A stretch of DNA of 51,203 bases from a virus. Positions 2,710 to 45,035 of the stretch are shown piece after piece. Location of the stretch: positions 1 to 51,203 of IMG/VR virus record IMGVR_UViG_3300021079_000011; one strand, given 5' to 3'. How positions within the stretch are numbered: the stretch's first letter is position 1; each line of letters starts with the position of its first letter. Made by a program: the position numbers and the translations under genes. Under the pieces are notes generated by a model. It had not been told where the DNA came from and did not search any database. It saw only the letters and a list, made by a program, of their open reading frames with translations.

Positions 2710-2755
2710 TTGACAACAAGACCATTATTGCTGAAGGTTGTCCAACCGAAAAATT

Positions 2756-3643: not shown

Positions 3644-3644
3644 T

Positions 3645-10674: not shown

Positions 10675-13600
10675 ATGCCATCACAGCTATTCAAGCCTGA
10701 CGATTCTCTTGATTTCGATTCTGTCTTAGAAAGCTCAAAGGCAAAGTTTGATGATGGTGGAGCATTAAGCTTTGATGCCGTCCCCGATGTTCCCGATGTT
10801 AAGCCAAGATTTTCTGATGATGGCGCATTGGACTTCGGCACACTGGAAACAAAGCCTGAGCCCGAGCCTAAGCCGATAGCTGCAACTCCGCAGCGCACAA
10901 ACTATCTCAGCTTATCGCCTGAATCGTTCCCGATAAATACGGATTCAACGATTGATAAGACTGATTCAACTCAGACTGTAAAACCCCCAGCAGCAAAAGA
11001 GGTTAATCCGTTGCCATTGTCGAGCATTCCTTGGATTGATTCAAATGGCTATCCTGACGAGAAGCTAATCGCTAAAAAAGCACAAGCCGAGACTGCTGCC
11101 CAGCAAAAGAAGCAGGACGATTTTGATTCTTTAGCTCACTCGTCTTATTGGAAGGGTGATGCAGCCAAGCAACTTCTTGAAAAAGCAGATTCCGCCAAGG
11201 AAACATTGGACAAATCTCCGACTCAAGAAAATTCAGACGCTTACAACGCGCTCATTGACCCGCTAAATGCGGCGATACAAGAACACAAGTCGAGCCAGCA
11301 AGAACTTCAGGCTGCTTATTTCAAAACAACGGGAGAAACGCCAGTCCCGCCAAGACCCGCTGAAAACAATTCTTATCGTGTTGATGGTGGCAAAATCCAT
11401 TTTACACCCGGCCAGTTTGCTGCAGGTCTGAATCAGGCTGTGAGCGATGGCGCGATTGACCCGAAGTTTGCAATGGACAATCGGGAGAAATTTCAAAAAG
11501 CGGACAAGATTCAGTCGAAGATTGATGGAAATGGCGACCCAAATTCTCAATACGAATATGACGGCAAGAACATCAGGTTTTATCCCGGTGAAGAAGCTGA
11601 CGGATTGCGCGAAGCATTGAAGGATGGTGTTGTCACGCCTGAATATGCCGCCAAAAACGAAAAGAAATTCGGAGAGGCACAAGCCAAATACAAAGAGTTG
11701 GTAGCTGCCGCAGGAAGCGAACAGGCGGCAAAAGCTTTACTTCATGGCGGGGCTAAAGGAACGGCTTTCATGGCCGCCGCTACTCCGGCATTTAAGGTTG
11801 GCGTGATTGGGACGGAAATGATTCCCGGTGTCGGGGAAATTCCCGGAGCAGCACTTGTTGGCGGAACAATCACTTCACTTCTCGCTGGCAGCGCGGCGGC
11901 TTATGCGACGAGCAAGCTGATGGACAAAGCCGCAGAGTATTCAGATTTTGTAAAAAAGTTCACAGCATCGGCTGAACTTCATCCTGTCGTGGATGCTGTG
12001 GGCGAACTGGCCGCTTTCGGGACAGGCGCACCAAAGGCATTGAGCAATCTCAAAAAGGTTTACGACATTGCTGGTGGCGGACGGGCTGGCGCAAAGGTTG
12101 TTGCACAAGAACTTGGCAAGGGTGCTATTGGGGGCGCAGCATTTGAAACCATTGTAAGGCCAGCTTTTGATGCTGGCAGATATGCGGTTGCCGACATGCT
12201 GGACATACCGCATGACAAGTTTCAATCTCCAACGCTTCAATCTGTTGCAACGATGGTCGGGCTCGGGATGTTGCTTCATGGCAAAAGCATTGAGTTCAAA
12301 AATTATTCCGACAGCCAGATTGCAGAAATTCTGCTAAAAGCAAAACTTCGGCGCGATGCTGGAATACCGCTGGACGAAAAAAACCTGACAGCAGAACAAA
12401 AGGCACAGTTCGCAATGGCGACAGGTCTGGGTGAAGGCGCGACAATTCCAGAAATTGAAGCGCACTTGGCAAAATACAGACTACTTGTGCCGCTGACAGA
12501 AAATGAAATTTCCGTCCACGACAAGTTGCAATCAATGGCCAATTCGATGTCGCAATCTGGCAATTTTGAGAACGACACGATAAAGAGCATCACGGCGAAA
12601 CAGGCATTGTTGCCAAGGATGATTGGCCAAAAGCCAAAACCTGTCACATCGGCAGACATTGAGCTTGAACCACCGTCCGAGCCGCGCCCGATGCTTGGCA
12701 GTCCAGAGCCCCCGCCTGAGCAGCCGCAAGCCCCGGCAGTATTCCATTCGATTCAGCCCCCGATGATACCCGGCCAGCAGCCGATTGAGCTTTGGAATTT
12801 GACCGAGGACATTCCCGGCCATCCGAAAGGCTCAACCGTGTCTCGTTCAACACTGGAAAAGGCCGGGTATATTGTGCCGTCTGCACCCGCCGCGACACCA
12901 AGCGACGACGAGCAGCCCGACGCGACAGGGGCGAAGGGGAGGCAGGTGGGTAAAGGATTTCAGCCGATAGTAGTTGGCAAAAAGGTGTTGTCGATAACAA
13001 CTCGCCCAGACACGGCGACATGGCAGGTAACATCATTCGCAGATGAATACCGAGAGCAACCATCAGGGCATGAGGGATTCAAAACGCTGGGCGAGGCGTT
13101 GGAATTTGTTGACTACAAGGGTAAGGAAAACAGAAGCGTCACCGACCTTGGATGGCAAAGCCCAGATGCGATTTTTGCGGCGTTGGAGCAGAATCCGGGC
13201 GCGAACGACCCGAATCCCAAGAACTTCATTTATGCGTCACCACGCCGTCCGCTTTCAGGACTGCGTGTTCCTGATGCGGTTCAGTCTCTTTCGTTCAAGA
13301 ATAAGGAAGGAGGGTTGGCTGGAATTGTTGAGGTGTCGCGCCCTCTGACGTTGGATGAAATGGCGGCATTTGAATTAGTTCCGGTCAACACATCGGCATC
13401 AAACACCTACTGGAAATCTGTGGCAGATGCGGTGCATCCGGGGCATGAAAAGATTCAAGCTGGCAAAGACGTTGCCGCCGAGACAGGGGCGAAGACAGGA
13501 AAACCATTCACGGCTAAAGCTTATCGTGGAATCAGCCCAAAGACACCAAACGACAAAGGCATTTATTCGGAAGGAGAACACTGGACGACCAGCAAAGATT

Positions 13601-16600
13601 ACGCGGACACATACGGGGACAAGCGCGGCGGAAAGACTCATGAATCGGAAATAACACTACAAAATCCGTTCGTGGCAACACCATCGGAAATGACTCGGTT
13701 GCATCACGGCCTTTCATCGCGTCAAGTGCGCGAGAAACTTCAAGCTGCTGGACATGATGGAGTCATCATATTGCATCCTGACGACGTTGCAGAATCGAAG
13801 GCTGCTGGTGTTCCTGACAGGCTTTTGCCGCCAGCACTAGGTCAAGAAATAATAAAATTCAACAAGCCCACCCTGCCCCCCGCCGCCGCGACAGGGGCGA
13901 AGGGGAAGCAGCCTAGTGCCACTGAATACGAGCGAATTGAGCGCGAGATTTCGATTGCTTTGAAGAATCCATTGTTCCGAGAGCAATCCAAAGCTGGCAC
14001 GGATTTCCGGGACGCTTTTCGAGACTTGGAAACAGAAGCGGAGTTTCACAAGCCTGCCGCGATTGAAAAAGCTCAGGCCGAAATTGACGCTGAGAAGGCC
14101 AAGAAAGCCGCCAAGTCCGGCAGTCCAGACATTGCTTTTATTGAGCGAAGTATTGCAAATCTGGAATACAGAATAAGACAAGACAAAATGCGAGGAATGA
14201 AGCGACCAGAGGATGTCCAAAGGCTTGCCGAACTTCGCACACAACTTAAATCAGCCAGCGCACCAGCCCCCGCGCAGACAGGGGCGAAGGGGGATGAACA
14301 ACACTTTGACAATCTTTTACGGGACACGTTTGGCGTAATCAACAGATTGCCAGCGGACAACATTGTTCGTAAGAGTGCAGAAATCGGGACTCGGGTTGCA
14401 ATGGGCGCAAAGACTGATGAAGAAAAGATTCTGGCAACAAAAGAACTGGCAAAATACGCCCAAGATGCAGCCAGCGAGTTGAGAAAAATCAGCCCGAAAG
14501 ATTCTGAATATGCCGACAGGCTGGAAAAGTCTCTGGACGACTACATAAAATCACAGCCCAAGACTGCCGAGCCAAAGCCAGCAGAATCACAATTCAAGGC
14601 TGGCGACATTGTTTTACATGACGGGGTTCAAAAGAAAGTTGTTCGTGTTTCGCCCGATGGCAAATTTGTCGTGCTTGGAAAACGAGCAGTCCCGGTTGCG
14701 GAAGTTAAACCATTAGAGCAACCCCCCGCCGCCACCGAAACCATTGAATCGCTCAAAGAGGAAATTGCGAAGATGGAGAATCGGCTTGAAACCATTTACA
14801 TACCCAAAGGCAACAAGGGCGACATCACAAACTACCGCTCGCAAATCGAAGGTAAGCGCAGGAAGCTCGCTGAACTTGAAAAGGTTGCCGAGCCAAAGCC
14901 ATTTAGCCCCGACGAAGACTTGCTAATGCACTCGCCCCATACGGGTGAAGATTCAATCGTGAATTTCCGGGGCTACATGCCAGATGGAAAGGCGATGGTC
15001 TGGACTGGCAAGATGCAAATGGCCATACCCGCAGAATGGCTACGCAGAAAAGGCGAGGCCAAGCCTGTCACGGAAAAGCCCGTTGAGCAGACAGAGAAGC
15101 CGCTTCCGTCTATTGCAATCCAAAAGTCCATAACCCAGATTTTGAAATCTGTTGCAATCATTGAGGGCAAGATTAACAAAAAGGCTTACGAAAGCGCATA
15201 CGCATCAATCCGGCTTCATGCAAACAAGCTGGGGATTGAGATTGAGCCGCTTGGGACATATTTCAACGCAGACCAATACAAGCGCGTTGCCAGCCATGTT
15301 CAAATTGAGATTGGCAAGAAATTTGGCAGCTTCCCAACAGCCGAGCATAGGGCTAAACGTGATGCTGTTCTTGCGGCTGATGCTGCAAGGAAAGCGGCCA
15401 AGAAACCCAACCGTTCGCCATTCAAAGTCAAGCCGCGCTCTGATGGTGTTCCCGACATCCTCGACGCAATTCAAGAGCTTGGCGGCATCAAGCCCAAGTC
15501 TGGCTCAACTGGTGGCGAGTATGACGGTTCTGGCGTGATGAAGGGGACGGCAAGAATGTTGTGGAACAGGCTTGGTCGTGCGCCAGATGTTCTGCTTTCA
15601 AACCTGAAATCAACAGGTGAATGGTCACGGCTCGAAACTGTGGATGATTTATGGTCTGAGATTGACCAAGCCAACAAAGCCCGGGACGCGCTCAAGTTTG
15701 GCGGTGGTGGAGATGAGGCACAGGCCAGAAGATTCTGGGAAGCCATTGACAAGCCCGAGAACGAAAAAGGTTTTGAGAAAATTCACGGTAGCCAACTTAA
15801 CGTCGGAAGCAAATTCAGGCTTAAAGGTGACGGCATAAGCCATGAAGAGCTTGAAGTCACACACATTGACCCGGACACAGGCGAAATAACCATCAAGGAC
15901 GGGACAACTTTTGGCACACAAGAAATTCCTGAATCAATCGAAATTTACATCAAGAAAGGCACACTCGAAACACCCGAAGACACCGGGTTTGATACGGGCG
16001 AGGAGCAGCCCGAGCCCAAAAAAGATGAAGAATTTGCTTCTCATTACGAGTTAAGACACTGGACTACGCCAGAAAGTGCCGCAAGTTTGTTAAGGGGTGA
16101 GCCTTTCAATTTCTCCCGCGAACCAATTCATAGTCAGGTAGATTTAAGCGGAAACTTTATCAAGGGGAAGCGCATGGGCGGGAACAGAATCCATCTTTCT
16201 CTGGACGATGGAACATGGGGTTTTCGACGAGACGCGAGCGGCAAGGTTATTGGAAATCTTGTGCCAGTAACTTATGCGGTTGATTATGCCGCTAAAGATT
16301 TACTCATTGACTCGCCAAAGTCGCTGCGTGAAGCGGAGCGACTGGCTGGCGAGAATGCCACCAAACCAGACGGAACTGGCAACGCAGCATTCTGGGATGC
16401 GCTACAAAAGAAGGGCATTAAACTTGTCCGAGTCGAGAATACTTCCGACTATCCCAATGTGAGATTCTTTGCCCAAGCAACTAGCGACACGGTGGTTGTG
16501 CTGGACAATTCCGCTGTGAAAGTAATTTCAAAAGCCAAAAAAACAGCCGCCCAGCCCAAGTCTGGCGAGAAAATCTTCACTGACACGGAAGCTGACGAGG

Positions 16601-19600
16601 CTGAGAAATGGCTTAGGGAAAATCTTGGGTTAAACGAGGATGAAGAAGGCGACGGATGGGATGCGTCTGAAGACCCCGGCCACCAAGAGGGCAGCAAAGG
16701 TTTAGACCCGAAAATTCTTGCCCGAGTCGTCACAATGGCTGGTCGAATCATTGAGTCTGGCAATGTGAAGTTTTCGGATTATGCGGCTCAGATGCTAAAG
16801 AAAGGGTTCAAGGGCGACTTGGCCAAATACATCCCTGCCGCATACCATGAAGTAAGAGATTTTTCCGAGGCCAGCGCATTGCGACATCAGATGTCAACCC
16901 GCGAAGAGGTTGACAGGTTTGATTACAATGCTGAAACAGGCCAGTTCGATGAAAGCCAGCCCGACCTTGGCGGAATAATAGGCTCAGACGAGCCGGGAGC
17001 AAAGCGACCACCGCTAAGAGAGGTTGACCCGAGCTTGATTCCTACTCCAAACATTTATGTCAAGAAAGGCCAATACACAGGCAAAGGAGGCCATTCGATT
17101 GACGAGCAACAACGGTTCGCAATCAACGTCATGCTCACCGCAAAGGCAAATGGCGAAAAGGCTGGCGTTTTGGCCGATGGAACTGGTGTTGGCAAGACTG
17201 GCATTGAACTGGTTCTGGCTGTTCAACTGGCTGAAATGACGGGCAAGCCTGTTGCGATTGTCACAGAAAACAAGGCTGTGATTGAAAATGCGTTTGTGAT
17301 GAACGCAAAGAAGTTCGGCATCGAAATTGATTTCGATAAGGTCAGATTTTTTACCTATACAGACTTGTCGAGCAACAACCTGCCAGACATTGAATGGGGC
17401 GCAGTCATATTTGATGAATCTCAAAACATCAAAAACATCATGTCTTCGCGTGGTGTCACCGCAGAAAACATCAAGTCCGAGTTCAATGTTTACGGGACGG
17501 CGACACCGATGGACAATGTTTTTCATGCGCCATATTTCTTGGGCAAAATTCTCGGGGTAGATGTTTTCACGATGGCGAGAAGGCTTGGCTACGAGCTTGT
17601 TCCCATAGATTTGCCCAACGGAAAATCATCATTCATCGCAAAATGGTTGAAGAGCAAAGACGGGGCGATTCCAATTTCTGAGTCCATCAAAAGGCTGAAA
17701 GATTACAGGTCGCAAGCCGTGAAGCGCGGGACTTATATCCGGCGCGAATATCCGTTCTTTGGCTCGGTCAATTTCAAAAATGCTCCGAGCTACAACGAGA
17801 AACAGCTTCACGAACAGGACGAGATAAACAATTACTGGGACGCTCTGGCGGCAGCAGAGCCCAAGAAGCGCATGGTCTATAATGCCCAGCGCATGAACGA
17901 GCTTGCCAGATGGACTGAGGCTCAAAAGGTTCAGGGCGCAATCGGTGAGATTGTTGCAGATTACGAAGCTGGAAAGCATGTGGTTGTTTTTGCTGAATAT
18001 GTAAATGACGGCGTTATCAAGGGGCTTGAAAAACTTGGTGTTCCATACGAAGTCCCCGGAACGCTTAAATATATCGCAGCAGAATTGAAAAAGCGCGGCA
18101 TCCCGTTTGCAACGGTGTTTGGTCGCGGGAAAGATAAGGGCAAAGAAGCGGCTGAATTTCAGCGGAACAAAAAAATCAGGGTCTTGCTCGCAACACCCAA
18201 GTCTGGCGGGGCTGGGCTAGACATGGACGATACGCATGGTGATTTCCCGAGAATCGTTCACATGTTGACCATGAATTATTCTGCGTCAATCTTCGACCAG
18301 ATTCTAGGTCGCGTTTCCCGCCGCAACACAGCAAGCCCGGCCAAGATTCTAATTTGGCGAGCCGAAAATTCACAGTCAGACCGTCGCAAGGTTGTCATTC
18401 TTGACCGTAAGCTTAACATCCTGAGAAAGATTCAGACCGGGGAAGACTTGGACACAACGGCTTTTGAAGAAAATTCTCAAGGCGACACATCAGCCGATGA
18501 TGAAAGCGGCACGGCTGAATCTTCGACAAAGAAGGGCGAGGATGGGGTTAAAATACTTGATGATGTCATTGACGACGAGTTTTCTTCCCCGGACATAACG
18601 GACACGGTTGACGACGAGTGGAATGACGAGCAACCACAGTCTGAGTTCGACATCTTTTCAGCCAACGACAGGGAGCTAAACGATTTCTTGGACAAACGGT
18701 TTGGGACAGAAGACAGGCGGCAACGGGGCGTTTCCGGGGATGCTGCTCGCCGGGGCTCTGGCGTTTATCAATTCCCGACCTACGAAGCTTTTGCGAAATG
18801 GATGGACGAAAGGTATGTCGAGCGGGACTTGGAAGGCATGAAGCTGGCTTTTGCCGAGGCCGAGCGCGATTACAAGGTTAAATACATCAAGGCCAACAGA
18901 GCCCCTGAGCATAAGAAGGATTGGGTAAACCATCTTGCAACAGGCTCGGTGCTTCCGGCTGGCGACCCGCCAATAACCCGCACGACACCGAGGCCGCTGC
19001 CCGGTGGCGGCACAGCCCCAGTCCCGGGAACGCCGCCAACCAGCACATCAACACCGCCAACGCCGCCCGGCGCACCGCCCAGACCGTCCAGACCGCCAAC
19101 GCACCATCGCAAGTTTAACATCACGGCTTTGGTTCAATTATTCAAGCAGTTCGCCAACAGGCATCCAACAATCAACGCCAAATTAGCCAAGACAACGCTT
19201 GGACGGCATCTGTCACCGCTCGGGCTGATTGAGCTTCAAAAGAATCTGCTCTGGGACATGGACTTGGCCGAGCGCGTTCTTGGCCATGAGATAGGACATT
19301 TCATTGACCTGATTGTTGAGGCATCCGGCAAGGGCAAAGAGATTGGGAACAGGCTCAGGCCGATGTTCGACTTTACTGGTCAGGCGATGCACAAGGCGGA
19401 ACTGAAAAAAGACATCATCAATTTGAGCAAGGCTTGGCGCGGAAACTTTTCTGCATCTGACAAATACAGGAATTCACCCAAGGAATTGATGGCAGATTTT
19501 CTGTCGGCAATGTTTAACGACCCGGAAATGGTGAATCAAACATTTCCAAACCTGTATGATGCTTGGCAGGAATTCAAGGACTCAAAGCCGTCATTCAAAT

Positions 19601-22600
19601 CCGCTTACCGCGAGATTGAGACTTGGCTTCAGGGTGATACGATGGGTTCGGAATTGATTGATAAATTCGGCGAAGATACTGACCTGACTTACGACATCTT
19701 GGGCAAGGAAGATTCGGACAACAAATCAACTTGGTGGGAAACATTCAATCATAGCTTCATCAGCCTATGGAAACGGGCTGGCGAAAAGGAGGCTAAAAAA
19801 GTTCCATTAAACAAATTGTCACCAGCTAGGCTCTGGAACAAGTCTGGATATAAGATGGTTAAGAATCGGCGCGTAGGATATAAGATTGAAGAGAAGCTTG
19901 ATGTTTCCCACATCTGGGCGGCAAACATGACTGCCATCTGGCAGGACGACTTCAGAAGGGATGTTCAGCCTTGGCTGGACAAGGTTGATTCCGACCCTCG
20001 CACGGTGCAGAAGTATTTTCAGAGCTACGCAGTTTCAAAGAGAACACTAGAAGAAACCAAAGCGGCTGGCGTGTGGATGAAGGACAACCCGGTTGAGACT
20101 AGGGAAATGCTTGAAAAGATTCTGGCAACAGTTTCCAGTCTTGAAGCGGAATATCTATCTGAGCTTAGGAACGCCTCAGATGATGAACTATACAATCTGA
20201 GCGCGAAGATTGCTCGCAAGATTCTTTTGATGTCAGATTCCAAGATTAACGAAATTGCCAGCGAGATAAACAGTCTCGGTTTTGAAATCAAAGGAAAACT
20301 TTTCTTGGGCGCGTTTGCTGTTCGTAGCTTTTTACTAAACACAGGAGGAATAACCCCAGAATCTGCACAGCTTGTCTTGAACGAGCTTCAGAGAAGACTG
20401 AGCCCGGAACAGTATTCGGCACTTGAAAAGGCTGCGGCTGAACTTCGCAAGCTTGTGTTTAAGGTTTCAAAGGAAATGTATGACCAAGGGCTGATAAACA
20501 AAGACATCTGGTATGAAACAATCTTGCCCAACCAAAACACTTACCTGCCTTATGCGGTTCTGGATTATTTCGACGGAACAGTAAGGGGCGGGATAATGCA
20601 ACAGGGTGGCAGCGCAAAAAGAATCGCGTCCGTAATAGCTGCTGCTCAATTAAAGGTTCAGTCCATGTATATTCTGTTGCAGAAGCAGCGGCAGGTTAAG
20701 CTTATCATGGATTCCTACAAAGCTGGTGACTCTGGTAAAGTCGCTACTGTTACCCGAAGGTTGCAAAGAGCCTCTGACCTGCACTCGATTAGGGGTCAAC
20801 ATCTGAGGGACACAACAAGCAGGGCGATACTTAGGGTCAACGGCTCGCCTTACCTTGTCGAGTTCCCGGAAGACCCCGGCAAGCAGTTTGAAAAATCAAT
20901 GGAAATAGCTGAGTTTTACGCATCGCTTGACTGGATTCACAACGTTTCAAAGTATTCTCATGCTGCCCAACAAATTTTCACCCAGCTTGCACCTACATTC
21001 CTGTTCTATCGCAACCCGATTCGTGGGCTTAGGACTGGTGCGCTAAAGGTTGGTGGGAGACACATATTGAAAGCGGCTTTCAACTGGGACTCAATCACGC
21101 AAGCCAGAAACTATGCTAACGCTTCGTTTAGTGGTCTAATGTCCCCAGTTATCCGTCAACTGGTTGAAGGTCAAGCCCTGATGTCGCCAAGGGCTGCTTC
21201 TGGTCAAGTAAGAGACGTTTCACAAATTGCGGGGCAAGGCTTGGCTGGTAAATTTCTGGCGAGCGAAATGAGACGTTTGGCGAGGAATGCAAATAAAAAA
21301 CCGTCAATACTTGGAGACAAATACAGGCAGGGAATTAACTTCTCTGCTAAAGTTTTCACAGGATTGGAAGCGTGGGAAAAGATTTACAACTACAAAGCCG
21401 CACTCGCTAAAGGGTTGACTCAGGAACAGGCTCTTATGATAACTCAAATGAGCGGAATACCGAGGCCGGGTGTTGGTGGCAAATTCTCGCCTTTTGTGGA
21501 AATCGGCATGCCTTGGACTCGCGTTAAGATTCAAGGCATGAGGGCAACCTACGACATGGCGCGTGACCCCGAGCTTGGCAAAGGTTTCTGGGCAAGATTT
21601 TTCATGTATGAAGCAGTCCCGAAGATTCTTCAAATGCTAGTGGCCAAGGCAATTGTATCGGGGTTAATCGCATGGATTTACAATAAGGGAGACGACCCTA
21701 AAGACCCGGTTATCACAGAGGTTTATCGCCGCATATCCCCATATAAAATGGCTTTAGACAATATTATACCACTGATGCTGTATAACCCGAGAAGCGGAAA
21801 GTATCATAAGTTTTGGGAGTTCAAGAGCGGCAATGAAATTCCGGCTCATTACGAGGTTGTTAGCCTGAGAATCCCGACCAGCGAAGAAGGATTGACATAC
21901 GGCACATTCCTTCATGCTTTAATGGTTTCTGCTTCAGGCGAGTCCAAAAACCTTGGCCGACCCGGAGCAACCCCAACCAAGAATATGTTTGATTGGGCTA
22001 TGAATTCTCTTTTACCCCAACCAAACCCGATTGCCACGACAGCATGGAAAACTATTCAGATGTTGGCAGGGACAAATCCAACTGACGATTTCAGAAACCA
22101 GCCGTCAGCAAACAAGCAACTGTTCGACGCTGGTGGCAAAGACAGGTTTCAGGCCATTCTTGGGTTTGAAGCGAGCCAGACCGCTGCTTTTGGTGAAATA
22201 GCTGGCATCATCGCGGCGAATTACGGCTTGATAGACCCCAAAGCTTTGAGCGCATTAAGCAAGCGTTCGGATTCAGATAATAAATCGTTCGTTGATAAAT
22301 ACCCATTTGTTAAAGCCGCATTTTCCTTCGACAACTACAATGGTTATAGGCAGGAGGAAAATGAGAAATTGGATAATGAAAAATATCACGATAGAGCTAA
22401 AAACCTGATGCCGACTGAAGGGCGGGAAATGTATAATTTCTATTATCGAAACCAAGACAAAAAGAATCTAGCTCCGCAAGACCAAGAAATGTTTGATATA
22501 GCGAAGCAATGGAACAGGGACATTTGGGGCTTAAAATCAACTGAAGACAAACTAAAACCCAACAGCAAGAAGCCCCCTAAATCTACCTACTACCCGCAAA

Positions 22601-22728
22601 TCCTTACGGCTGTTAAGAACGAGGCTTCACCCGAAATGTTGCGGACATTACAAGAAAATTTAAGACAGGCGAGTTCGCCGTATTACAGCTCCTTTACAAA
22701 CGCCAAGTCTGGCGCAACAACCAAATGA
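10675..22728 (+). CDS. Giant polyvalent protein: ART-like, SF2 helicase, metallopeptidase
   Basis: A 4017-residue protein, almost a quarter of the genome. In order: a disordered acidic N-terminus; Gly/Ala-rich hydrophobic segments around residues 360-420; an ADP-ribosyltransferase-like fold near 900-1065 (KAYRGIS at about 948); a second such region near 1785-1955 (LRHWTTPESAA); an SF2 helicase at about 2140-2600 with Walker A DGTGVGKT (2168-2175), DESQ (2247-2250) and motif VI ILGRVSRR (2543-2550); a Pro-rich linker; a zinc metallopeptidase HEIGH (2871-2875) with a downstream ELMAD; then about 1100 mostly helical residues with a hydrophobic helix near 3650. A TGAKG-containing linker occurs four times. 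Known polyvalent proteins are packaged in virions and injected to counter host defence, sometimes with internal-virion functions. That role here is inference. Confidence 0.85.
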   Translation: MPSQLFKPDDSLDFDSVLESSKAKFDDGGALSFDAVPDVPDVKPRFSDDGALDFGTLETKPEPEPKPIAATPQRTNYLSLSPESFPINTDSTIDKTDSTQTVKPPAAKEVNPLPLSSIPWIDSNGYPDEKLIAKKAQAETAAQQKKQDDFDSLAHSSYWKGDAAKQLLEKADSAKETLDKSPTQENSDAYNALIDPLNAAIQEHKSSQQELQAAYFKTTGETPVPPRPAENNSYRVDGGKIHFTPGQFAAGLNQAVSDGAIDPKFAMDNREKFQKADKIQSKIDGNGDPNSQYEYDGKNIRFYPGEEADGLREALKDGVVTPEYAAKNEKKFGEAQAKYKELVAAAGSEQAAKALLHGGAKGTAFMAAATPAFKVGVIGTEMIPGVGEIPGAALVGGTITSLLAGSAAAYATSKLMDKAAEYSDFVKKFTASAELHPVVDAVGELAAFGTGAPKALSNLKKVYDIAGGGRAGAKVVAQELGKGAIGGAAFETIVRPAFDAGRYAVADMLDIPHDKFQSPTLQSVATMVGLGMLLHGKSIEFKNYSDSQIAEILLKAKLRRDAGIPLDEKNLTAEQKAQFAMATGLGEGATIPEIEAHLAKYRLLVPLTENEISVHDKLQSMANSMSQSGNFENDTIKSITAKQALLPRMIGQKPKPVTSADIELEPPSEPRPMLGSPEPPPEQPQAPAVFHSIQPPMIPGQQPIELWNLTEDIPGHPKGSTVSRSTLEKAGYIVPSAPAATPSDDEQPDATGAKGRQVGKGFQPIVVGKKVLSITTRPDTATWQVTSFADEYREQPSGHEGFKTLGEALEFVDYKGKENRSVTDLGWQSPDAIFAALEQNPGANDPNPKNFIYASPRRPLSGLRVPDAVQSLSFKNKEGGLAGIVEVSRPLTLDEMAAFELVPVNTSASNTYWKSVADAVHPGHEKIQAGKDVAAETGAKTGKPFTAKAYRGISPKTPNDKGIYSEGEHWTTSKDYADTYGDKRGGKTHESEITLQNPFVATPSEMTRLHHGLSSRQVREKLQAAGHDGVIILHPDDVAESKAAGVPDRLLPPALGQEIIKFNKPTLPPAAATGAKGKQPSATEYERIEREISIALKNPLFREQSKAGTDFRDAFRDLETEAEFHKPAAIEKAQAEIDAEKAKKAAKSGSPDIAFIERSIANLEYRIRQDKMRGMKRPEDVQRLAELRTQLKSASAPAPAQTGAKGDEQHFDNLLRDTFGVINRLPADNIVRKSAEIGTRVAMGAKTDEEKILATKELAKYAQDAASELRKISPKDSEYADRLEKSLDDYIKSQPKTAEPKPAESQFKAGDIVLHDGVQKKVVRVSPDGKFVVLGKRAVPVAEVKPLEQPPAATETIESLKEEIAKMENRLETIYIPKGNKGDITNYRSQIEGKRRKLAELEKVAEPKPFSPDEDLLMHSPHTGEDSIVNFRGYMPDGKAMVWTGKMQMAIPAEWLRRKGEAKPVTEKPVEQTEKPLPSIAIQKSITQILKSVAIIEGKINKKAYESAYASIRLHANKLGIEIEPLGTYFNADQYKRVASHVQIEIGKKFGSFPTAEHRAKRDAVLAADAARKAAKKPNRSPFKVKPRSDGVPDILDAIQELGGIKPKSGSTGGEYDGSGVMKGTARMLWNRLGRAPDVLLSNLKSTGEWSRLETVDDLWSEIDQANKARDALKFGGGGDEAQARRFWEAIDKPENEKGFEKIHGSQLNVGSKFRLKGDGISHEELEVTHIDPDTGEITIKDGTTFGTQEIPESIEIYIKKGTLETPEDTGFDTGEEQPEPKKDEEFASHYELRHWTTPESAASLLRGEPFNFSREPIHSQVDLSGNFIKGKRMGGNRIHLSLDDGTWGFRRDASGKVIGNLVPVTYAVDYAAKDLLIDSPKSLREAERLAGENATKPDGTGNAAFWDALQKKGIKLVRVENTSDYPNVRFFAQATSDTVVVLDNSAVKVISKAKKTAAQPKSGEKIFTDTEADEAEKWLRENLGLNEDEEGDGWDASEDPGHQEGSKGLDPKILARVVTMAGRIIESGNVKFSDYAAQMLKKGFKGDLAKYIPAAYHEVRDFSEASALRHQMSTREEVDRFDYNAETGQFDESQPDLGGIIGSDEPGAKRPPLREVDPSLIPTPNIYVKKGQYTGKGGHSIDEQQRFAINVMLTAKANGEKAGVLADGTGVGKTGIELVLAVQLAEMTGKPVAIVTENKAVIENAFVMNAKKFGIEIDFDKVRFFTYTDLSSNNLPDIEWGAVIFDESQNIKNIMSSRGVTAENIKSEFNVYGTATPMDNVFHAPYFLGKILGVDVFTMARRLGYELVPIDLPNGKSSFIAKWLKSKDGAIPISESIKRLKDYRSQAVKRGTYIRREYPFFGSVNFKNAPSYNEKQLHEQDEINNYWDALAAAEPKKRMVYNAQRMNELARWTEAQKVQGAIGEIVADYEAGKHVVVFAEYVNDGVIKGLEKLGVPYEVPGTLKYIAAELKKRGIPFATVFGRGKDKGKEAAEFQRNKKIRVLLATPKSGGAGLDMDDTHGDFPRIVHMLTMNYSASIFDQILGRVSRRNTASPAKILIWRAENSQSDRRKVVILDRKLNILRKIQTGEDLDTTAFEENSQGDTSADDESGTAESSTKKGEDGVKILDDVIDDEFSSPDITDTVDDEWNDEQPQSEFDIFSANDRELNDFLDKRFGTEDRRQRGVSGDAARRGSGVYQFPTYEAFAKWMDERYVERDLEGMKLAFAEAERDYKVKYIKANRAPEHKKDWVNHLATGSVLPAGDPPITRTTPRPLPGGGTAPVPGTPPTSTSTPPTPPGAPPRPSRPPTHHRKFNITALVQLFKQFANRHPTINAKLAKTTLGRHLSPLGLIELQKNLLWDMDLAERVLGHEIGHFIDLIVEASGKGKEIGNRLRPMFDFTGQAMHKAELKKDIINLSKAWRGNFSASDKYRNSPKELMADFLSAMFNDPEMVNQTFPNLYDAWQEFKDSKPSFKSAYREIETWLQGDTMGSELIDKFGEDTDLTYDILGKEDSDNKSTWWETFNHSFISLWKRAGEKEAKKVPLNKLSPARLWNKSGYKMVKNRRVGYKIEEKLDVSHIWAANMTAIWQDDFRRDVQPWLDKVDSDPRTVQKYFQSYAVSKRTLEETKAAGVWMKDNPVETREMLEKILATVSSLEAEYLSELRNASDDELYNLSAKIARKILLMSDSKINEIASEINSLGFEIKGKLFLGAFAVRSFLLNTGGITPESAQLVLNELQRRLSPEQYSALEKAAAELRKLVFKVSKEMYDQGLINKDIWYETILPNQNTYLPYAVLDYFDGTVRGGIMQQGGSAKRIASVIAAAQLKVQSMYILLQKQRQVKLIMDSYKAGDSGKVATVTRRLQRASDLHSIRGQHLRDTTSRAILRVNGSPYLVEFPEDPGKQFEKSMEIAEFYASLDWIHNVSKYSHAAQQIFTQLAPTFLFYRNPIRGLRTGALKVGGRHILKAAFNWDSITQARNYANASFSGLMSPVIRQLVEGQALMSPRAASGQVRDVSQIAGQGLAGKFLASEMRRLARNANKKPSILGDKYRQGINFSAKVFTGLEAWEKIYNYKAALAKGLTQEQALMITQMSGIPRPGVGGKFSPFVEIGMPWTRVKIQGMRATYDMARDPELGKGFWARFFMYEAVPKILQMLVAKAIVSGLIAWIYNKGDDPKDPVITEVYRRISPYKMALDNIIPLMLYNPRSGKYHKFWEFKSGNEIPAHYEVVSLRIPTSEEGLTYGTFLHALMVSASGESKNLGRPGATPTKNMFDWAMNSLLPQPNPIATTAWKTIQMLAGTNPTDDFRNQPSANKQLFDAGGKDRFQAILGFEASQTAAFGEIAGIIAANYGLIDPKALSALSKRSDSDNKSFVDKYPFVKAAFSFDNYNGYRQEENEKLDNEKYHDRAKNLMPTEGREMYNFYYRNQDKKNLAPQDQEMFDIAKQWNRDIWGLKSTEDKLKPNSKKPPKSTYYPQILTAVKNEASPEMLRTLQENLRQASSPYYSSFTNAKSGATTK

Positions 22729-24288: not shown

Positions 24289-26597
24289 AAACAGCAACAA
24301 CTGAGTCACAGGAGTTCGGCACGCCAGAAAAGGTTGTGGCCATAACTGAAACGATGCAGACCATCGAAGACCGAAGGGCGATGGACAGGGCGAAGATAAA
24401 CACGCTGTTCAATGGTAGCCGACCCTACACGGACGAGGAGGTTAAGAAATTCCAGATTCAGATTAACGTGAACTGGGGCGAAGGGAAAAGAATCATGGTG
24501 GACGCAAACCGCCAGATGAACGCAGCCCTGCTTCATACCGGGAGACTTTTTAGCTGCACACTTGAGGCCGGGAAAGTTGACAAGCGGGATGAATGGTCTG
24601 AGAACTTCACGAAATTCATACACGAACCCGTCCAGCGTGGTCGCAGCGGGAAAAAGCATCATTACCTTATCAGGTCGCGGAACGCCACTGTCTGTTTGCA
24701 TGGTATCGGGGCTTTGCTCTGGCCTAACAGCTTCCGCTGGATGCCAAGATTTGTGCCGCTTGAAGACTTGCTGATTCCAACTGATACATTCTGCGATTTC
24801 TCAAACCTTAGGTATTTCGCAATCAACCTGTATCTGACCCCGGGCGAACTGGTTGACATGACTCAGGGCGAAGAGGTTGACAAGGGGTGGAACAAAGATT
24901 TGGTCGCAAATCTTCTTGACGAGTCTGCAAAAGCCCAGACCGAATCAACGCCGTCAACATGGAAAGACCAGCCCGAGGCCATGATGGAGATTAAGAAGCA
25001 GAACAACGGCTGGTATTACAGTGATGCGGTGAACAAAATCAAGCTGCGAGCATTTTATTATCAGAGCATTGACAAGCCGCAATCTTGGTATCGCCACATC
25101 GTTTTGAGGGAGGGAATCGGAGGGGTTAATACGGACAAGTTTGTTTACGATGGAAGCGACAGGGTTTTTGCAGCGTCCATTGACAACATCTTGAATGTCC
25201 AATTTGGCGACAGCAGCCTTATCGCCCCGTTGAAATACCATTCTGTTCGGGGACTGGGAGTTGACCTGTATGCGCCAGTCGAAACCACAAACAGACTGCG
25301 CTGCGAATTTGTCCAGAGCGTTTTTGAACATTTGAAGATGTATTTCAAGATTCAAGACCCGGCAGACCGGGACAGGCTGAAGTCTGTTGTCTTGCAGCAA
25401 TACGGATTCATCCCGGAAGGGTTGAACATTATCCCGAGGGAGCAGCGGCATCAGGTTGACCCGGAAATGGTCAGGGAAGCCATGTCCAACATGCGCCAGA
25501 TAATGCAGGAGAATTCCAGCGGCTATGTTCAAGACCAAAACGCTTCATCAGGCAGTCCGATAACGGCGCGTGAAGCTTCAATCCGGCTGAATCAGGCTAC
25601 GCAGATGATTAGCGGCATGATGCAGAACATGTATCTTCAGGAAGGGTTCTATTACCAAGAGGTTGTTCGGAGATTTTGCAACCCGGACTCTGAAGATGCT
25701 GAAGTAAAAACTTTCCAAGAAAAGTGTCTCAAGGCCGGGATTCCGAAAGAATTGATGAAGGCCGAGCTATGGAACATCGTTCCCGAAAGAGTTCTTGGTG
25801 GTGGCGACAAGTCCATCGCTCAAGCCCAGTCTGAATGGCTTTTGCAGCACAAGACCGAATACGACCCTGAGGCGCAGCAAAAGATTCTGCGGCTTGCAAC
25901 GTCAACAGTCTTGGAAGACCCGGCCAAAGGACGCATGTTCGTTCCGACAGCCCCGGTCACGGCAACAGACGGCACGTTCGCGGCAGAGAATGTTTTTGGA
26001 ACATTAATGCTCGGAATTCCTTGCGCCATGAGAGAGGGCATAGACCAGATTGGCTATGTCGAGGCCATGCTGAAAATGATGGGCTCGGTAATCCAAAGCA
26101 TCAGCCAAACGGACAATGTCGGCACACCGCAACAGGTTGTCGGCCTTCAGACATGCGCTCAAAATGTCGGTCAACACATTCAGGTTATCGCCGGGGACGA
26201 GCAGGAAAAGTCTCGCGCAAAACAATACATGGATGTTCTCGGGCAGATGGCCAACGAGGTTAAGGGCTTTGCCCAGAGACAGCAGGAAGCTCAAAAGAAT
26301 CAGCAAGGTGGCGAAGCTCAGGCTGAACAGGCCGTTGCACAAGCCAAGATTCAAGCCATGACACAACAGGCTCAGGCCAAGTCGCAGATATTGGCCGAGA
26401 CATCGAAACAAAAACTGCAACAGAGCGAGGCCGCTTTCCAACAGGAAATGCAACAGGAAATGCAGAAGCACACGCTCGAAATGCAGTCCATGATTGAACA
26501 AGCCAAGGCAGACATGGCCGCAAGCGCGATGAAGATGCAGACTGACGCGATGATTGCCGAGGTAAAGGCCAAAGCAGCGGCAAAAAAACCCGCTTGA
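24285..26597 (+). CDS. Portal protein
   Basis: A 770-residue protein. The N-terminal 60 residues are helical. A portal-like core has INVNWGEGKRIMVDANRQMN, a clip and stem region rich in W and P, and NPDSEDAEVK. The C-terminal 170 residues form a long Gln/Ala-rich coiled coil (QAEQAVAQAKIQAMTQQAQ), comparable to the barrel of large podovirus portals. Size, position before the scaffold candidate, and the helical tail support the call. A dodecamer at the packaging vertex is the expected role. Family similarity was judged by eye. Confidence 0.75.
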   Translation: MKTATTESQEFGTPEKVVAITETMQTIEDRRAMDRAKINTLFNGSRPYTDEEVKKFQIQINVNWGEGKRIMVDANRQMNAALLHTGRLFSCTLEAGKVDKRDEWSENFTKFIHEPVQRGRSGKKHHYLIRSRNATVCLHGIGALLWPNSFRWMPRFVPLEDLLIPTDTFCDFSNLRYFAINLYLTPGELVDMTQGEEVDKGWNKDLVANLLDESAKAQTESTPSTWKDQPEAMMEIKKQNNGWYYSDAVNKIKLRAFYYQSIDKPQSWYRHIVLREGIGGVNTDKFVYDGSDRVFAASIDNILNVQFGDSSLIAPLKYHSVRGLGVDLYAPVETTNRLRCEFVQSVFEHLKMYFKIQDPADRDRLKSVVLQQYGFIPEGLNIIPREQRHQVDPEMVREAMSNMRQIMQENSSGYVQDQNASSGSPITAREASIRLNQATQMISGMMQNMYLQEGFYYQEVVRRFCNPDSEDAEVKTFQEKCLKAGIPKELMKAELWNIVPERVLGGGDKSIAQAQSEWLLQHKTEYDPEAQQKILRLATSTVLEDPAKGRMFVPTAPVTATDGTFAAENVFGTLMLGIPCAMREGIDQIGYVEAMLKMMGSVIQSISQTDNVGTPQQVVGLQTCAQNVGQHIQVIAGDEQEKSRAKQYMDVLGQMANEVKGFAQRQQEAQKNQQGGEAQAEQAVAQAKIQAMTQQAQAKSQILAETSKQKLQQSEAAFQQEMQQEMQKHTLEMQSMIEQAKADMAASAMKMQTDAMIAEVKAKAAAKKPA

Positions 26598-27090: not shown

Positions 27091-28255
27091 CGAAACAATC
27101 GCGCCAGTTGCCCCAGCCCCGGAATCAGTCACGCCGCCTACACCAACCGCCGCCGCGCCAGCCGCGCCGACACCGCCAGCACAGCCAAGCTCAACGCAGT
27201 CTCTTATTTCTGAAATGGAAAACCTCAGGAATCCTGAGCCGGAAAAGACCGAGCCGCCAAAGACTGATGCCCAGCCGAAGACTGACCCCAAACTCGCTGC
27301 GGTTACGCCAGTCAAAGAAAAAGACCCTGTATCACTCAGGAAAAAGCTGGCTGAAATTGAACAGGAATATAACGGGTTCAAGCTGACGGCCACACAGGAG
27401 CGGGAGAAGCTTGCTGCAAAAATTGCGGAGTTTGAAAAGAGAAAATATCTCACGCCGGAACAGGAGCAGCAACAGAAGGCGATGGAGAGTCGCTTGAAAC
27501 AGGTCGAGTCCGAGTTTTACGCGAGGGATTACAAGGAAAGCCCGGAATTCAAGGAGTTTTTTGAAAAGCGGTGGCAAGACCAATACAAGACTGCGGTTGA
27601 TGGAGTCTCAACAATCACCATCGTTGACGACAACGGCGACACCAGAGCCGCGAACCGTGCTGATTTTGAAAAGGTGCGGAACGCCCCCAATGGTGTTGAA
27701 CTCCGAAGAGCGGCCAAGCAGATTTTTGGCGAAGACGCAGACTTTGTTATTGACCAAGTTTCGCAGCTTCTTGTAATCCAAGATTCTGCCAAGAAAGAAC
27801 TCGAAACCCGAAAGGCGGAATACGATTCAAGGATGAAAGCTCAGGTTGAGACTCGCCAGAAAAGCTCCGAGATATTTGATACCGTCCAGACCGATACCGA
27901 CAAGAAGATGCGCGAAAAGTGGCCTCAATACTTTGGCGAAGACCCAGAAGACAAGGAATCCAACGAGGCTCTGAAGCGCGGGGCTGATTTCATATCCACA
28001 TCGCTTGAAGGTCGCGGCAAACTAAGCTCTGAAGATGTTGCAACCCGGTCTGCGATAATCAAGAACTGGGCAGCATCGTTCCCGAGGTTGGTTCACAAGC
28101 TTGAAAAAAGTGACGCTGAAATAAAGGCTCTGAAAGAAACCATTTCCAAGCTGCGCGGGAGCGACCCCGGCAGCATTGATGGAGGCTCGGGCGAAGGCGT
28201 GGCAGTCACCAAGGGTGGCGGAATAAATGAACTTATCGCACAGTTTGAGGAATGA
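27083..28255 (+). CDS. Scaffold-like protein
   Basis: A 390-residue protein. The N-terminal 60 residues are Pro/Ala/Thr-rich and disordered. Residues about 85-150 form a strongly charged coiled coil (LRKKLAEIEQEYNGFKLTA, REKLAAKIAEFEKRK). A mixed middle domain, further acidic helices, and a Gly-rich C-terminal region follow, ending in a short LIAQFEE helix. Such highly charged helical proteins between portal and capsid genes are usually internal scaffolds. It is followed by a GroES homologue with ATGA coupling. The scaffold role is inferred from position and composition. Confidence 0.6.
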   Translation: MPDETIAPVAPAPESVTPPTPTAAAPAAPTPPAQPSSTQSLISEMENLRNPEPEKTEPPKTDAQPKTDPKLAAVTPVKEKDPVSLRKKLAEIEQEYNGFKLTATQEREKLAAKIAEFEKRKYLTPEQEQQQKAMESRLKQVESEFYARDYKESPEFKEFFEKRWQDQYKTAVDGVSTITIVDDNGDTRAANRADFEKVRNAPNGVELRRAAKQIFGEDADFVIDQVSQLLVIQDSAKKELETRKAEYDSRMKAQVETRQKSSEIFDTVQTDTDKKMREKWPQYFGEDPEDKESNEALKRGADFISTSLEGRGKLSSEDVATRSAIIKNWAASFPRLVHKLEKSDAEIKALKETISKLRGSDPGSIDGGSGEGVAVTKGGGINELIAQFEE

Positions 28256-43044: not shown

Positions 43045-43376
43045 AAATTTATGTGACTGGAAAGCTTGTCGGTGAAGTTGTTTCTGGCGAGTTCAGGAAA
43101 ACTGTTCGGGGCTCAATCCATTTCTTGCGTAAACCGCCAGCAATCGCTTTCGATGAAGAAAGCATACATCAAGCTGCCGGGGCTGGGGCGCGGGTTATCG
43201 TTGTCACCGACAAAGATACTTGCAAAGTTTACCGGGCGACGATGAAAGACTTGAAACAATACGGTGTTGAATTTGACCGGGGCTATGGTCAGCAGATATT
43301 CTTGCCATTCAATCGCTGGAACAGGCCGGAAGAAAATTTACACGAACAGGCCGATTTGTTTTGTGCTAACGTATGA
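43041..43376 (+). CDS. Hypothetical early protein
   Basis: A 111-residue protein. Strand-rich N-terminus (MKIYVTGKLVGEVVSG), then GARVIVVTDKDTCKVYRATM and FDRGYGQQIFLPFNRW. It resembles a small alpha/beta phage protein. Its stop overlaps the methyltransferase ATG, the point where codon use and GC content change, so this gene is probably the last native one before the cassette-type genes. Confidence 0.55.
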   Translation: MKIYVTGKLVGEVVSGEFRKTVRGSIHFLRKPPAIAFDEESIHQAAGAGARVIVVTDKDTCKVYRATMKDLKQYGVEFDRGYGQQIFLPFNRWNRPEENLHEQADLFCANV

Positions 43377-43921
43377 ACTCAGCCACCGCCGACCTAAAAC
43401 CGTCAACCGCGATAGCGGAACTGGATGTGCAGCCCTTCCCGCCAGTGCTCGATGCGTGCTGCGGTGGCCGCAGATTCTGGTTCAAACGTGATGACGCTCG
43501 CTCGCTCTTTGTGGACATTCGCAACGAAACAGACCAGATAGACCCGCGACCGGGAAGAAAGCCTCAAATCGTCGCTCCAGACTGGCAAGGCAGCTTCACC
43601 GCCATGCCGTTTCCAGACAACACTTTTGCCCATGTGGTATTCGACCCGCCGCACCGGACGACTCTGACAAGTGAATCAGACGCTAAGACGTGGCTGGTGC
43701 GCCAATACGGGAGGCTCGTCGGCGACTGGCGCGAGATGCTGCGCCTCGGATTCGCTGAATGCTTTCGGGTGCTCCGCCCCGAAGGGACGCTCATATTCAA
43801 GTGGTGCGAATACGATGTGGCCGTGTCGGAAGTGCTCGCACTGACCCCAGTGAAACCGCTTTACGGCCACCGGAGCGGGAAACAGAGCAACGACGCACTG
43901 GTGCGCGTTCTTGAAGCCTAA
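43373..43921 (+). CDS. DNA methyltransferase-like protein, cassette-type gene
   Basis: A 182-residue class I methyltransferase. Motif I is VLDACCGG (25-32) and an acidic strand end VDIRNE lies near residue 50. Motif IV is FDPPH (90-94), close to the DPPY/NPPY signature of adenine-N6 or cytosine-N4 DNA methyltransferases but with His in place of Tyr. FRVLRPEGTLIFKW follows. No target-recognition domain is visible, so it is short. The sequence is richer in G and C than its neighbours, and the TAA stop lies inside the R box of an attC-type site. It is coupled by ATGA to the preceding phage gene. Confidence 0.7.
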   Translation: MNSATADLKPSTAIAELDVQPFPPVLDACCGGRRFWFKRDDARSLFVDIRNETDQIDPRPGRKPQIVAPDWQGSFTAMPFPDNTFAHVVFDPPHRTTLTSESDAKTWLVRQYGRLVGDWREMLRLGFAECFRVLRPEGTLIFKWCEYDVAVSEVLALTPVKPLYGHRSGKQSNDALVRVLEA

Positions 43922-44005
43922 CAAAAAGCTCACCGATGCCGGGCCTGACGCGCCCGGACTCGCGTGAGACGCAATCCCGGCATTCGGTGCAGCGTATGGT
44001 TGGAC
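43916..44005 (+). repeat. attC-type integron recombination site 1
   Basis: R'' box GCCTAAC (43916-43922, fits RYYYAAC) and R' box GTTGGAC (43999-44005, fits GTTRRRY) flank an inverted pair: CACCGA+TGCCGGG on one side and CCCGGCA+T+TCGGTG on the other. The single unpaired T in the second arm is the kind of extrahelical base that guides integron integrases on the folded bottom strand. The methyltransferase stop lies in the R'' box, as is usual in cassettes. Length 90 nt. Confidence 0.75.
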
Positions 44006-44026
44006 GGCGAACAACGATAATCGAAT

Positions 44027-44299
44027 ATGAAAAAAGACTACGAAGTAAACGGTGATACAATCCGCGACCCGCACGGTGACGTGATGTGTGGAACGGATGA
44101 GTTTGTAGCGGAGATGCGTATGCTCCGAGAAACCCTCTACAACCTGTTCTGGAGAACGTCCCTGCTGCGGGCTGAAATGGCTCACCGATACGGAACGTCT
44201 CTGACGCTAATGGTGGAGTTCAGCAAGCACACGCAAGCCATGCGGGAAGCTGAATCAATCCTGAACGACAAACCGTTCCCAGCCCCGGAGGTCAAATGA
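44027..44299 (+). CDS. Cassette gene 1, hypothetical
   Basis: A 90-residue protein inside the attC-bounded cassette, starting 22 bases after the first site. YEVNGDTIRDPHGDVMCGTD suggests a small beta hairpin (as in short phage or bacterial proteins with DxxG turns), followed by a helical segment (FVAEMRMLRETLYNLFWRTS). It overlaps the next gene by ATGA. Function unknown, as for most cassette genes. Confidence 0.6.
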   Translation: MKKDYEVNGDTIRDPHGDVMCGTDEFVAEMRMLRETLYNLFWRTSLLRAEMAHRYGTSLTLMVEFSKHTQAMREAESILNDKPFPAPEVK

Positions 44300-44526
44300 C
44301 AGCATCAACAATCAAGCGCGGCGACATCCTCGAAACGCGGTCGGTGTCCCTGACAACCTGCGGCGCGGTGCGTGACAAGGGAATCATCGTGCCGGGAACT
44401 CGCGTCAAAGTCGTGCGTGCCGAAAAGCCCGCCTTCTACAAATGCGAAGTCCAGCCAGTCGAACGCGAAAACGGAGCGGTGTTCGTATGGCTGTGGGCGT
44501 CCGAACTGAAGCCGTCCAACAAATAG
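44296..44526 (+). CDS. Cassette gene 2, small beta-barrel-like protein
   Basis: A 76-residue protein. Alternating strands (GDILETRSVSLTTCGAVRDK, GTRVKVVRAEKPAFYKCEVQ) and GAVFVWLWASELKPS suggest an SH3-like small barrel. Its TAG stop lies within the second attC site, directly after the R'' box, as is usual for cassette genes. Coupled to the previous gene. Confidence 0.6.
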   Translation: MTASTIKRGDILETRSVSLTTCGAVRDKGIIVPGTRVKVVRAEKPAFYKCEVQPVERENGAVFVWLWASELKPSNK

Positions 44527-44565
44527 TTCACCGACGCGCAGCGTTCGGTGCAACGGCAGTTAGGC
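44514..44565 (+). repeat. attC-type integron recombination site 2
   Basis: R'' GTCCAAC (44514-44520) and R' GTTAGGC (44559-44565) flank CACCGACGC-GCA-GCG-T-TCGGTG. The arms CACCGA and TCGGTG are shared with site 1, again with one unpaired T at the same place. Length 52 nt. On the minus strand, the stop codon of the convergent gene at 44560-44871 lies inside the R' box (GCC-TAA-C). Confidence 0.75.
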
Positions 44566-44871
44566 GGGATTCTCTTCCTGTGGCTGGTTCAAAATACAGT
44601 CCGGGTTGTTACAGGTGAACTTGGGGCTGTTCGGATAAGCGTCCGAAACCATTTTTTTACCGCAATAATCGCACTCGTCCATGAACCTGACAGCAACCCG
44701 ACTGTCGCCGTGCAAATCGTAGCTGACAAAGAATTTCCTGATTGCGTCCCTCAACTCTTTCCTTGTGGCGATTCCATCAGTCAAGTCTGCGTCAAAATGA
44801 ATGACCGACTCGCTCGGTCTTATTCCAACTTCGGACTCGCCCGGGCTGGTGATGTAAACAGTGGTATTCAT
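44560..44871 (-). CDS. Small zinc-finger hypothetical protein
   Basis: A 103-residue protein, last in the minus early operon, with start ATG in an ATGA overlap. N-terminal strand (MNTTVYITSPGESEVGIRPS), then HFDADLTDGIATRKELRDAI, and a C-terminal zinc-type segment CDYCGKK with CNNPDC. Its TAA stop falls in the R' box of the attC site at 44559-44565, so it may have been cut or extended by cassette insertion. Confidence 0.6.
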   Translation of the reverse strand: MNTTVYITSPGESEVGIRPSESVIHFDADLTDGIATRKELRDAIRKFFVSYDLHGDSRVAVRFMDECDYCGKKMVSDAYPNSPKFTCNNPDCILNQPQEENPA

Positions 44872-45035
44872 TTGCAAAATGATTCAAACTTTTCCAAGAT
44901 TTGGGGGAAGGCGAGCTTCAATGTTTCAAGGTTTTCAGAGTCAGCAACCTGAGCTGCATTTGCAATCGCAACTTCAAAGCTGCCACCAAATCGTTTCATC
45001 ACGGTGATAATTTCGTCGTCAGTTGGTCTTTTCAT
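44868..45035 (-). CDS. Small helical hypothetical protein
   Basis: A 55-residue protein. I prefer the ATG at 45035, one base after the previous stop, giving MKRPTDDEIITVMKRFGGSF at the N-terminus; an upstream in-frame ATG (45056, MTGTVID) lies inside the previous gene. Mostly helical (FEVAIANAAQVADSENLETL). No known function. Confidence 0.5.
   Translation of the reverse strand: MKRPTDDEIITVMKRFGGSFEVAIANAAQVADSENLETLKLAFPQILEKFESFCK

Follow-up and report, generated by a model that had tools for sequence, protein, structure and literature searches.

Integrons are bacterial gene-capture platforms whose cassettes are read from a fixed promoter. At their attC sites, the integrase IntI recombines the folded bottom strand, which has two extrahelical bases on the same side, and IntI1 works best on sites with a T-N6-G or T-N6-C arrangement (PMC3053210; PMC11023631). 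In inverted chromosomal integrons, greater exchange has been shown with the recombining strand on the lagging-strand template (PMC11023631). Integron sites also affect gene expression, wherein ORF-11 and ORF-18 of attI1 are translation enhancers and attC affects translation (PMC8876359).

Integrase-less attC arrays (CALINs) are found in phages as well. The available part of the survey by Qi et al. (2023) reports 17 CALINs and four integron/integrase carriers among 10,705 phage genomes, recombination by IntI1 of five of the six phage attC sites tested, and methyltransferases as frequent CALIN cargo (PMC9892861). A cassette in a phage is therefore not new, and an initial description of the present locus from sequence alone (the sequence-only reading), which called such cassettes rare, is tempered by these published cases as well as by about a dozen further contigs reported below. 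The phage CALINs described in the same part of that source (TJE1, P12002L, H101, and M16-3), where the orientation of genes against the recombining strand is not analyzed, resemble our locus in being integrase-less attC arrays with small unknown genes and DNA methyltransferases (PMC9892861), but they belong to another attC family. With two attC sites and no intI in a record that may be incomplete, the window (the whole 51,203-nt stretch of viral DNA analyzed) falls within the published CALIN class, defined by at least two attC sites and no integrase.

Results

Two attC sites in the window

The two gene blocks of this region converge at the attC location, as had been described, and all box letters and coordinates proposed for two attC-type sites at 43916 to 44565 were verified. 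The site we call attC1 (43916–44005, where the bottom strand is the + strand of the window) is positioned 5′ of the cassette genes and is the predicted attC of the cassette itself. Its R boxes are GCCTAAC (43916–43922) and GTTGGAC (43999–44005), and its stem joins nucleotides 43928 to 43943 with 43976 to 43993, leaving T43983 and C43990 extrahelical. The second site, attC2 (44514–44565, +), is also the intergenic region between the converging genes and is the putative resident attC of the phage. It has the R boxes GTCCAAC (44514–44520), which currently holds the cassette end, and GTTAGGC (44559–44565), along with a stem formed by nucleotides 44526 to 44537 and 44541 to 44554 from which T44544 and C44551 are extrahelical. 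The sequence-only reading had correctly described CACCGA/TCGGTG stems with an unpaired T at both sites, but had overlooked the second extrahelical base (C43990 and C44551). Both sites carry RYYYAAC and GTTRRRY boxes around an imperfect palindrome, and the T-N6-C arrangement is kept over nine aligned sites. Thus, attC1 and attC2 show the full architecture of an attC bottom strand, which we regard as real.

Single-strand folding of the + strand bears out the proposed hairpins (z = −2.8 for attC1 and −3.0 for attC2). A geometry search required an AAC box, a short spacer, and a stem whose 3′ arm has one unpaired T separated by six paired bases from an unpaired G or C, followed by the outer pairs and a GTT box. 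This search was designed with the family already seen, and therefore serves as a specificity check rather than as a blind discovery. On both strands of the 51 kb, only attC1 and attC2 have the full geometry, both on the + strand, and 0 matches were obtained in 100 dinucleotide-preserving shuffles of the 51 kb. Independent support comes from a covariance model, R1, which was built from seven attC1-type sites with attC2 left out and which recovered attC2 at 36.1 bits (E = 7e-10). Among seven sequences, 19 of 19 pairs are kept, two pairs exhibit double changes, and the score is reached by 2 of 500 shuffles, a covariation test of moderate weight because the sequences are few. An Rfam search of the window returned no family match.

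Boundaries and polarity of the cassette

The predicted cuts are GCCTAA^C (43921/43922) and GTCCAA^C (44519/44520). The predicted mobile unit between these two AA^C points spans nucleotides 43922 to 44519 (598 bp, +) and includes attC1, ORF1, and ORF2. Like other cassettes, the unit has a recombination point at each edge, and its R′ and R″ ends complement each other. However, cassettes usually carry their gene on the top strand and their attC at the 3′ end, whereas here the genes are on the bottom strand and the attC is at the 5′ end. When the unit is removed in silico, GCCTAAC, the attC2 stem, and GTTAGGC form a perfect single attC (7 of 7 box positions), which would sit between the stop codon of the methyltransferase gene and that of a converging 105-aa gene. 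The predicted excised circle, in which GTCCAAC and GTTGGAC flank the attC1 stem, is likewise perfect (7 of 7). The pairing of the R boxes across the cassette is 7 of 7, as had been stated, and by itself fits both polarities equally.

Polarity was assigned with the aadA1-type attC, found in 2,514 plasmid records, as the reference, where we assume the orientation of the aadA1 gene relative to its attC. The 3′ arm of the aadA1 bottom strand reads T-CGGCTT-G, and the + strand of the window reads T-TCGGTG-C at both sites. With its extrahelical bases on the 3′ arm, the + strand is the recombining bottom strand, and the unit is 43922 to 44519. The sequence-only reading had instead drawn the cassette as 44000 to 44559, with the genes followed by attC2 in canonical order. 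This placement is contradicted by the extrahelical bases, by an IntI-bearing reference integron, and by a second phage contig (L018), both of which are described below. Its wider proposal of an integron cassette in a phage is supported with those details reversed, and we consider the 598-bp two-gene segment to be a real integron gene cassette inserted between converging gene blocks.

Genes at the locus

The last gene of the + operon (43373–43921) encodes a DNA methyltransferase of 182 aa (phrog_954, E = 7e-52; PADLOC MTase_II, 6e-47). The geometry search revealed no attC upstream of this gene, which has no cassette start of its own, and it is probably a resident phage gene outside the mobile unit. 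ORF1 of the cassette (90 aa, 44027–44299, +) starts 22 bases past attC1, the loop of which lacks an ATG. The start of ORF2 (76 aa, 44296–44526, +) overlaps the ORF1 stop. Both upstream genes had been said to end inside the R″ side of a site. This holds for the methyltransferase, whose TAA (43919–43921) is in the first R box, but the TAG of ORF2 (44524–44526), while within attC2, falls just past the third box. On the opposite side, the 105-aa gene of the converging operon (44560–44877, −) has its TAA stop in an attC2 R box.

ORF1 and ORF2 share 86% and 93% aa identity with their L018 counterparts at dN/dS values of 0.17 and 0.13, respectively, and are under purifying selection on the + strand. 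Neither yielded a Pfam or PADLOC family or a significant PHROG match, and no relatives of the cassette proteins were found in phages (ORF2), plasmids (both), or bacterial genomes (ORF2). A search for sigma-70-type promoters at the site was negative, so readthrough out of the + operon is the likeliest route by which the cassette genes would be expressed.

The window also has a weak but clear match to terminase large subunits, and its terminase has one weak relative (27%) among 289 Verrucomicrobiota, with no other host signal. A megablast search with the last 15 kb against 50,697 phage records gave no relative, and a relative of the window carrying the empty site, a check named beforehand, was absent from the phage records searched. 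Elsewhere in the window are a 33-base tandem repeat of about five copies with an 11-aa period (8817–9014, inside an ORF at 8433–9170) and a single ORF of 4017 aa (10675–22728).

Cassettes shared and exchanged between phages

The L018 contig (10,408 bp), in which a terminase and a major head protein are present, matches the window over 596 bp at 88% and has no other DNA or protein in common with it. It carries attC1 and both ORFs without attC2, and the homology ends at GTCCAACA. Beyond the predicted cut, the window reads GTCCAACAAATAG and L018 reads GTCCAACAGTGATTAAG. Within the attC1 stem, the two differ by paired compensatory changes (C-G to A-T and T-A to C-G). L018 itself ends (position 10408) at the AAC of attC1, at most 2 bases from the predicted cut. 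The left edge is therefore uncheckable in this contig, where several neighbors in the population could have broken the assembly. In a further contig (L033), the attC1 hairpin recurs with 96% identity over 91 bp beside other R boxes and another small gene, and the unit there is bounded by ATATAA^C and GGCTAA^C, wherein GTTAGCC and GGCTAAC are complementary.

Two near-identical phages (L049 and L068; 92% over 1.3 kb upstream and 96% over 5 kb downstream) carry different cassettes at one common resident attC (L049, oriented −, 2284–4268; L068, 1341–1913). To the left of the GAAC of this shared site the cassettes differ entirely: L068 has a single Dam-type methyltransferase cassette, where L049 has several others. 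This difference is the clearest sign of recent cassette exchange, and the pair is a natural exchange experiment.

Distribution of the attC family

About a dozen other viral contigs have related sites. The attC1 hairpin is also present in L018, L033, L107 (L035), L108 (L037), L109 (L038), and L110 (L036), and pattern scans together with R1 detected weaker family sites in L042, L043, L049, L066, L068, L072, and L082. The phage contigs are metagenomic and several are fragments. Most contigs tested are phages as judged by head, neck, tail, replication, or recombination proteins; for L110, L043, and L082, one protein tested per contig had no PHROG match. Several sets of candidate sites were discarded. 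Matches from the first R′/L′ pattern scan were confined to coding sequence in L014/L015, and the 47 matches to a third pattern were mostly one conserved phage coding sequence without the 5′ arm. Among 13 bacterial pattern matches, 12 look like chance, and genome-wide checks of five of these 12 gave no match.

The one real bacterial match is a Verrucomicrobia MAG, RA.bin74 (L106), in which R1 finds 18 attC sites within 11 kb, all oriented alike. This array is part of a complete integron with IntI beside it (TIGR02249, 446.8 bits; cut-off, 265). It is of the same attC family by the covariance model, with the same R and L boxes and T-N6-C/G bulges, and unlike the phages it has IntI and carries its genes on the attC top strand. 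R1 hits were obtained for 30 of 289 Verrucomicrobiota genomes versus 7 of 299 in a proteobacterial sample, an excess which suggests, but does not prove, that Verrucomicrobiota are the hosts of these phages. Two RA.bin74 contigs encode related cassette proteins (GHRNAKD..LNIAEGNG; L111, 3931–4413, −; L112, 4560–4958, +), which we take to resemble 23S rRNA intervening-sequence/four-helix bundle proteins.

Gene orientation and start codons within attC sites

When strands were assigned by codon-usage score, the coding strand was found to be the recombining strand in 16 phage cassettes and the opposite strand in 2, a hand-compiled count that includes L018 and L033 and excludes one 43-base interval. 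In bacterial arrays (RA.bin74 and one other Verrucomicrobiota), 22 of 25 intervals are on the canonical strand and 3 are on the recombining strand. The difference corresponds to a Fisher p value of 7e-7 with cassettes treated as independent, which overstates the certainty because cassettes within an array are non-independent. The two phage and three bacterial intervals that run the other way all do so weakly. A longest-ORF strand test was dropped because long shadow ORFs opposite the genes left its phage results mixed.

In 14 of 31 phage sites, an ATG opens a frame that extends at least 25 codons beyond the site, versus 5 of 30 bacterial sites, where it is on the noncoding strand. As translated from the contigs, the predicted first residues of three proteins are encoded by attC: a C5 methylase-like protein (MNSPETQSRHSVQRMVSR, L107; PF00145 just below cut-off), an N6_N4 methylase (MILKPNRNPGVRCSARLDG, L108; 2.5e-52), and a Dam protein (MTARPDAP..., L068; 1.4e-14). 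Genes of the RA.bin74 type often have their stop inside attC instead (18 of 30 bacterial sites). In the L109 and L110 arrays, SLQRMVR or SVQRMV-like protein N termini are translated attC sequence, which could help to spot cassette proteins in databases.

Among published phages, TJE1 has one clean site, of canonical polarity. In the Pseudoalteromonas phage H101 (L145), the recombining strand appears to be the gene strand at ∼26529 to 26585 and ∼27931 to 27987, such that H101 may, provisionally, share the inverted polarity. The H101 reading comes from a relaxed attC finder, which proved too noisy to settle polarity in the published phages.

Discussion

We estimate a probability of roughly 80% that a resident attC2-type site received a circular attC1-ORF1-ORF2 cassette through an IntI-type recombinase, with the genes on the recombining strand. 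The phage would have held a resident attC (the attC2 stem with boxes GCCTAAC and GTTAGGC) between two converging operons. An IntI-type tyrosine recombinase would cut the folded + strand of this site at GCCTAA^C, and the circle of attC1 and ORF1-ORF2 would be inserted at the cut. Both genes would then follow their attC on the recombining strand, thereby extending the + operon behind the methyltransferase gene. The window record has no match to intI (TIGR02249), and hence lacks a complete integron, and the phage records searched, several of them fragmentary, yielded no convincing integron integrase. IntI is therefore probably supplied in trans, from an integron of the infected host, which would most likely be a member of the Verrucomicrobiota.

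An insertion of ordinary polarity, in which 44000 to 44559 (ORF1-ORF2 and then attC2) entered behind an attC1 belonging to the methyltransferase gene, is equally compatible with the symmetric R-box complementarity, and the + strand does read as genes before an attC. We nevertheless consider it improbable, because the extrahelical bases are on the + 3′ arm, which is the bottom-strand side in aadA1 and in the IntI-anchored Verrucomicrobia array. Moreover, L018 has attC1 and the genes without attC2, and attC1 is kept across phages beside different genes. Even less credible to us is a reading without IntI, in which the hairpins act as bidirectional terminators or regulatory stem-loops of phage intergenic regions and are reshuffled through homologous or illegitimate recombination. 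Such routes are suggested for phage CALINs in the available part of the Qi et al. report (PMC9892861), and attC2 is terminator-like on the − strand. However, terminators need neither same-side extrahelical bases at a fixed spacing nor AAC/GTT boxes, L018, L033, and L049/L068 have their unit edges at AA^C, and the family contains a full integron array adjoining IntI.

We take the hairpin-first form of the window cassette, in which the hairpin often contributes the start codon and first residues, to be the general one in a group of phages of this attC family. Our observations also suggest that phages keep and exchange a cassette pool of their own. We would give about even odds to a fuller version of this proposal, wherein some phages maintain a reversed pool, with attC first and the coding strand as the recombining strand, the protein takes its start codon and an N-terminal tag from the loop, and host integrases move the cassettes among phages. 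Alternatively, the cassettes may be chromosomal ones of canonical type, a few of them with inverted genes, that phages took up by accident, such that the inversion is functionless. Reversed genes do occur within cassettes, and the published phage TJE1 is canonical by its one clean site. We judge this explanation unlikely, since the inversion recurs across several phage backbones whereas chromosomal arrays with this type of attC have canonical polarity, and since start codons inside attC imply coadaptation.

In literature that covered few subscription journals, we found no report of consistent inversion of phage cassettes or of a start codon within a cassette's own attC, and the inverted, attC-first form looks new. 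Like attI1 with ORF-11 and ORF-18 (PMC8876359), these phage attC sites are recombination sites that would supply translation initiation to a cassette gene. In attI1 the start is in attI and serves the first cassette only, whereas in the phages it is in the cassette's own attC and moves with the gene. This represents a new, testable design in which a translated recombination site travels at the front of a gene. With the recombining strand as the coding strand, genes codirectional with replication could also present it on the lagging-strand template, which would raise exchange. If this view is true, integrons would serve also as a swap system for phages, through which antirestriction methyltransferases and unknown small genes are exchanged by way of host integrases.
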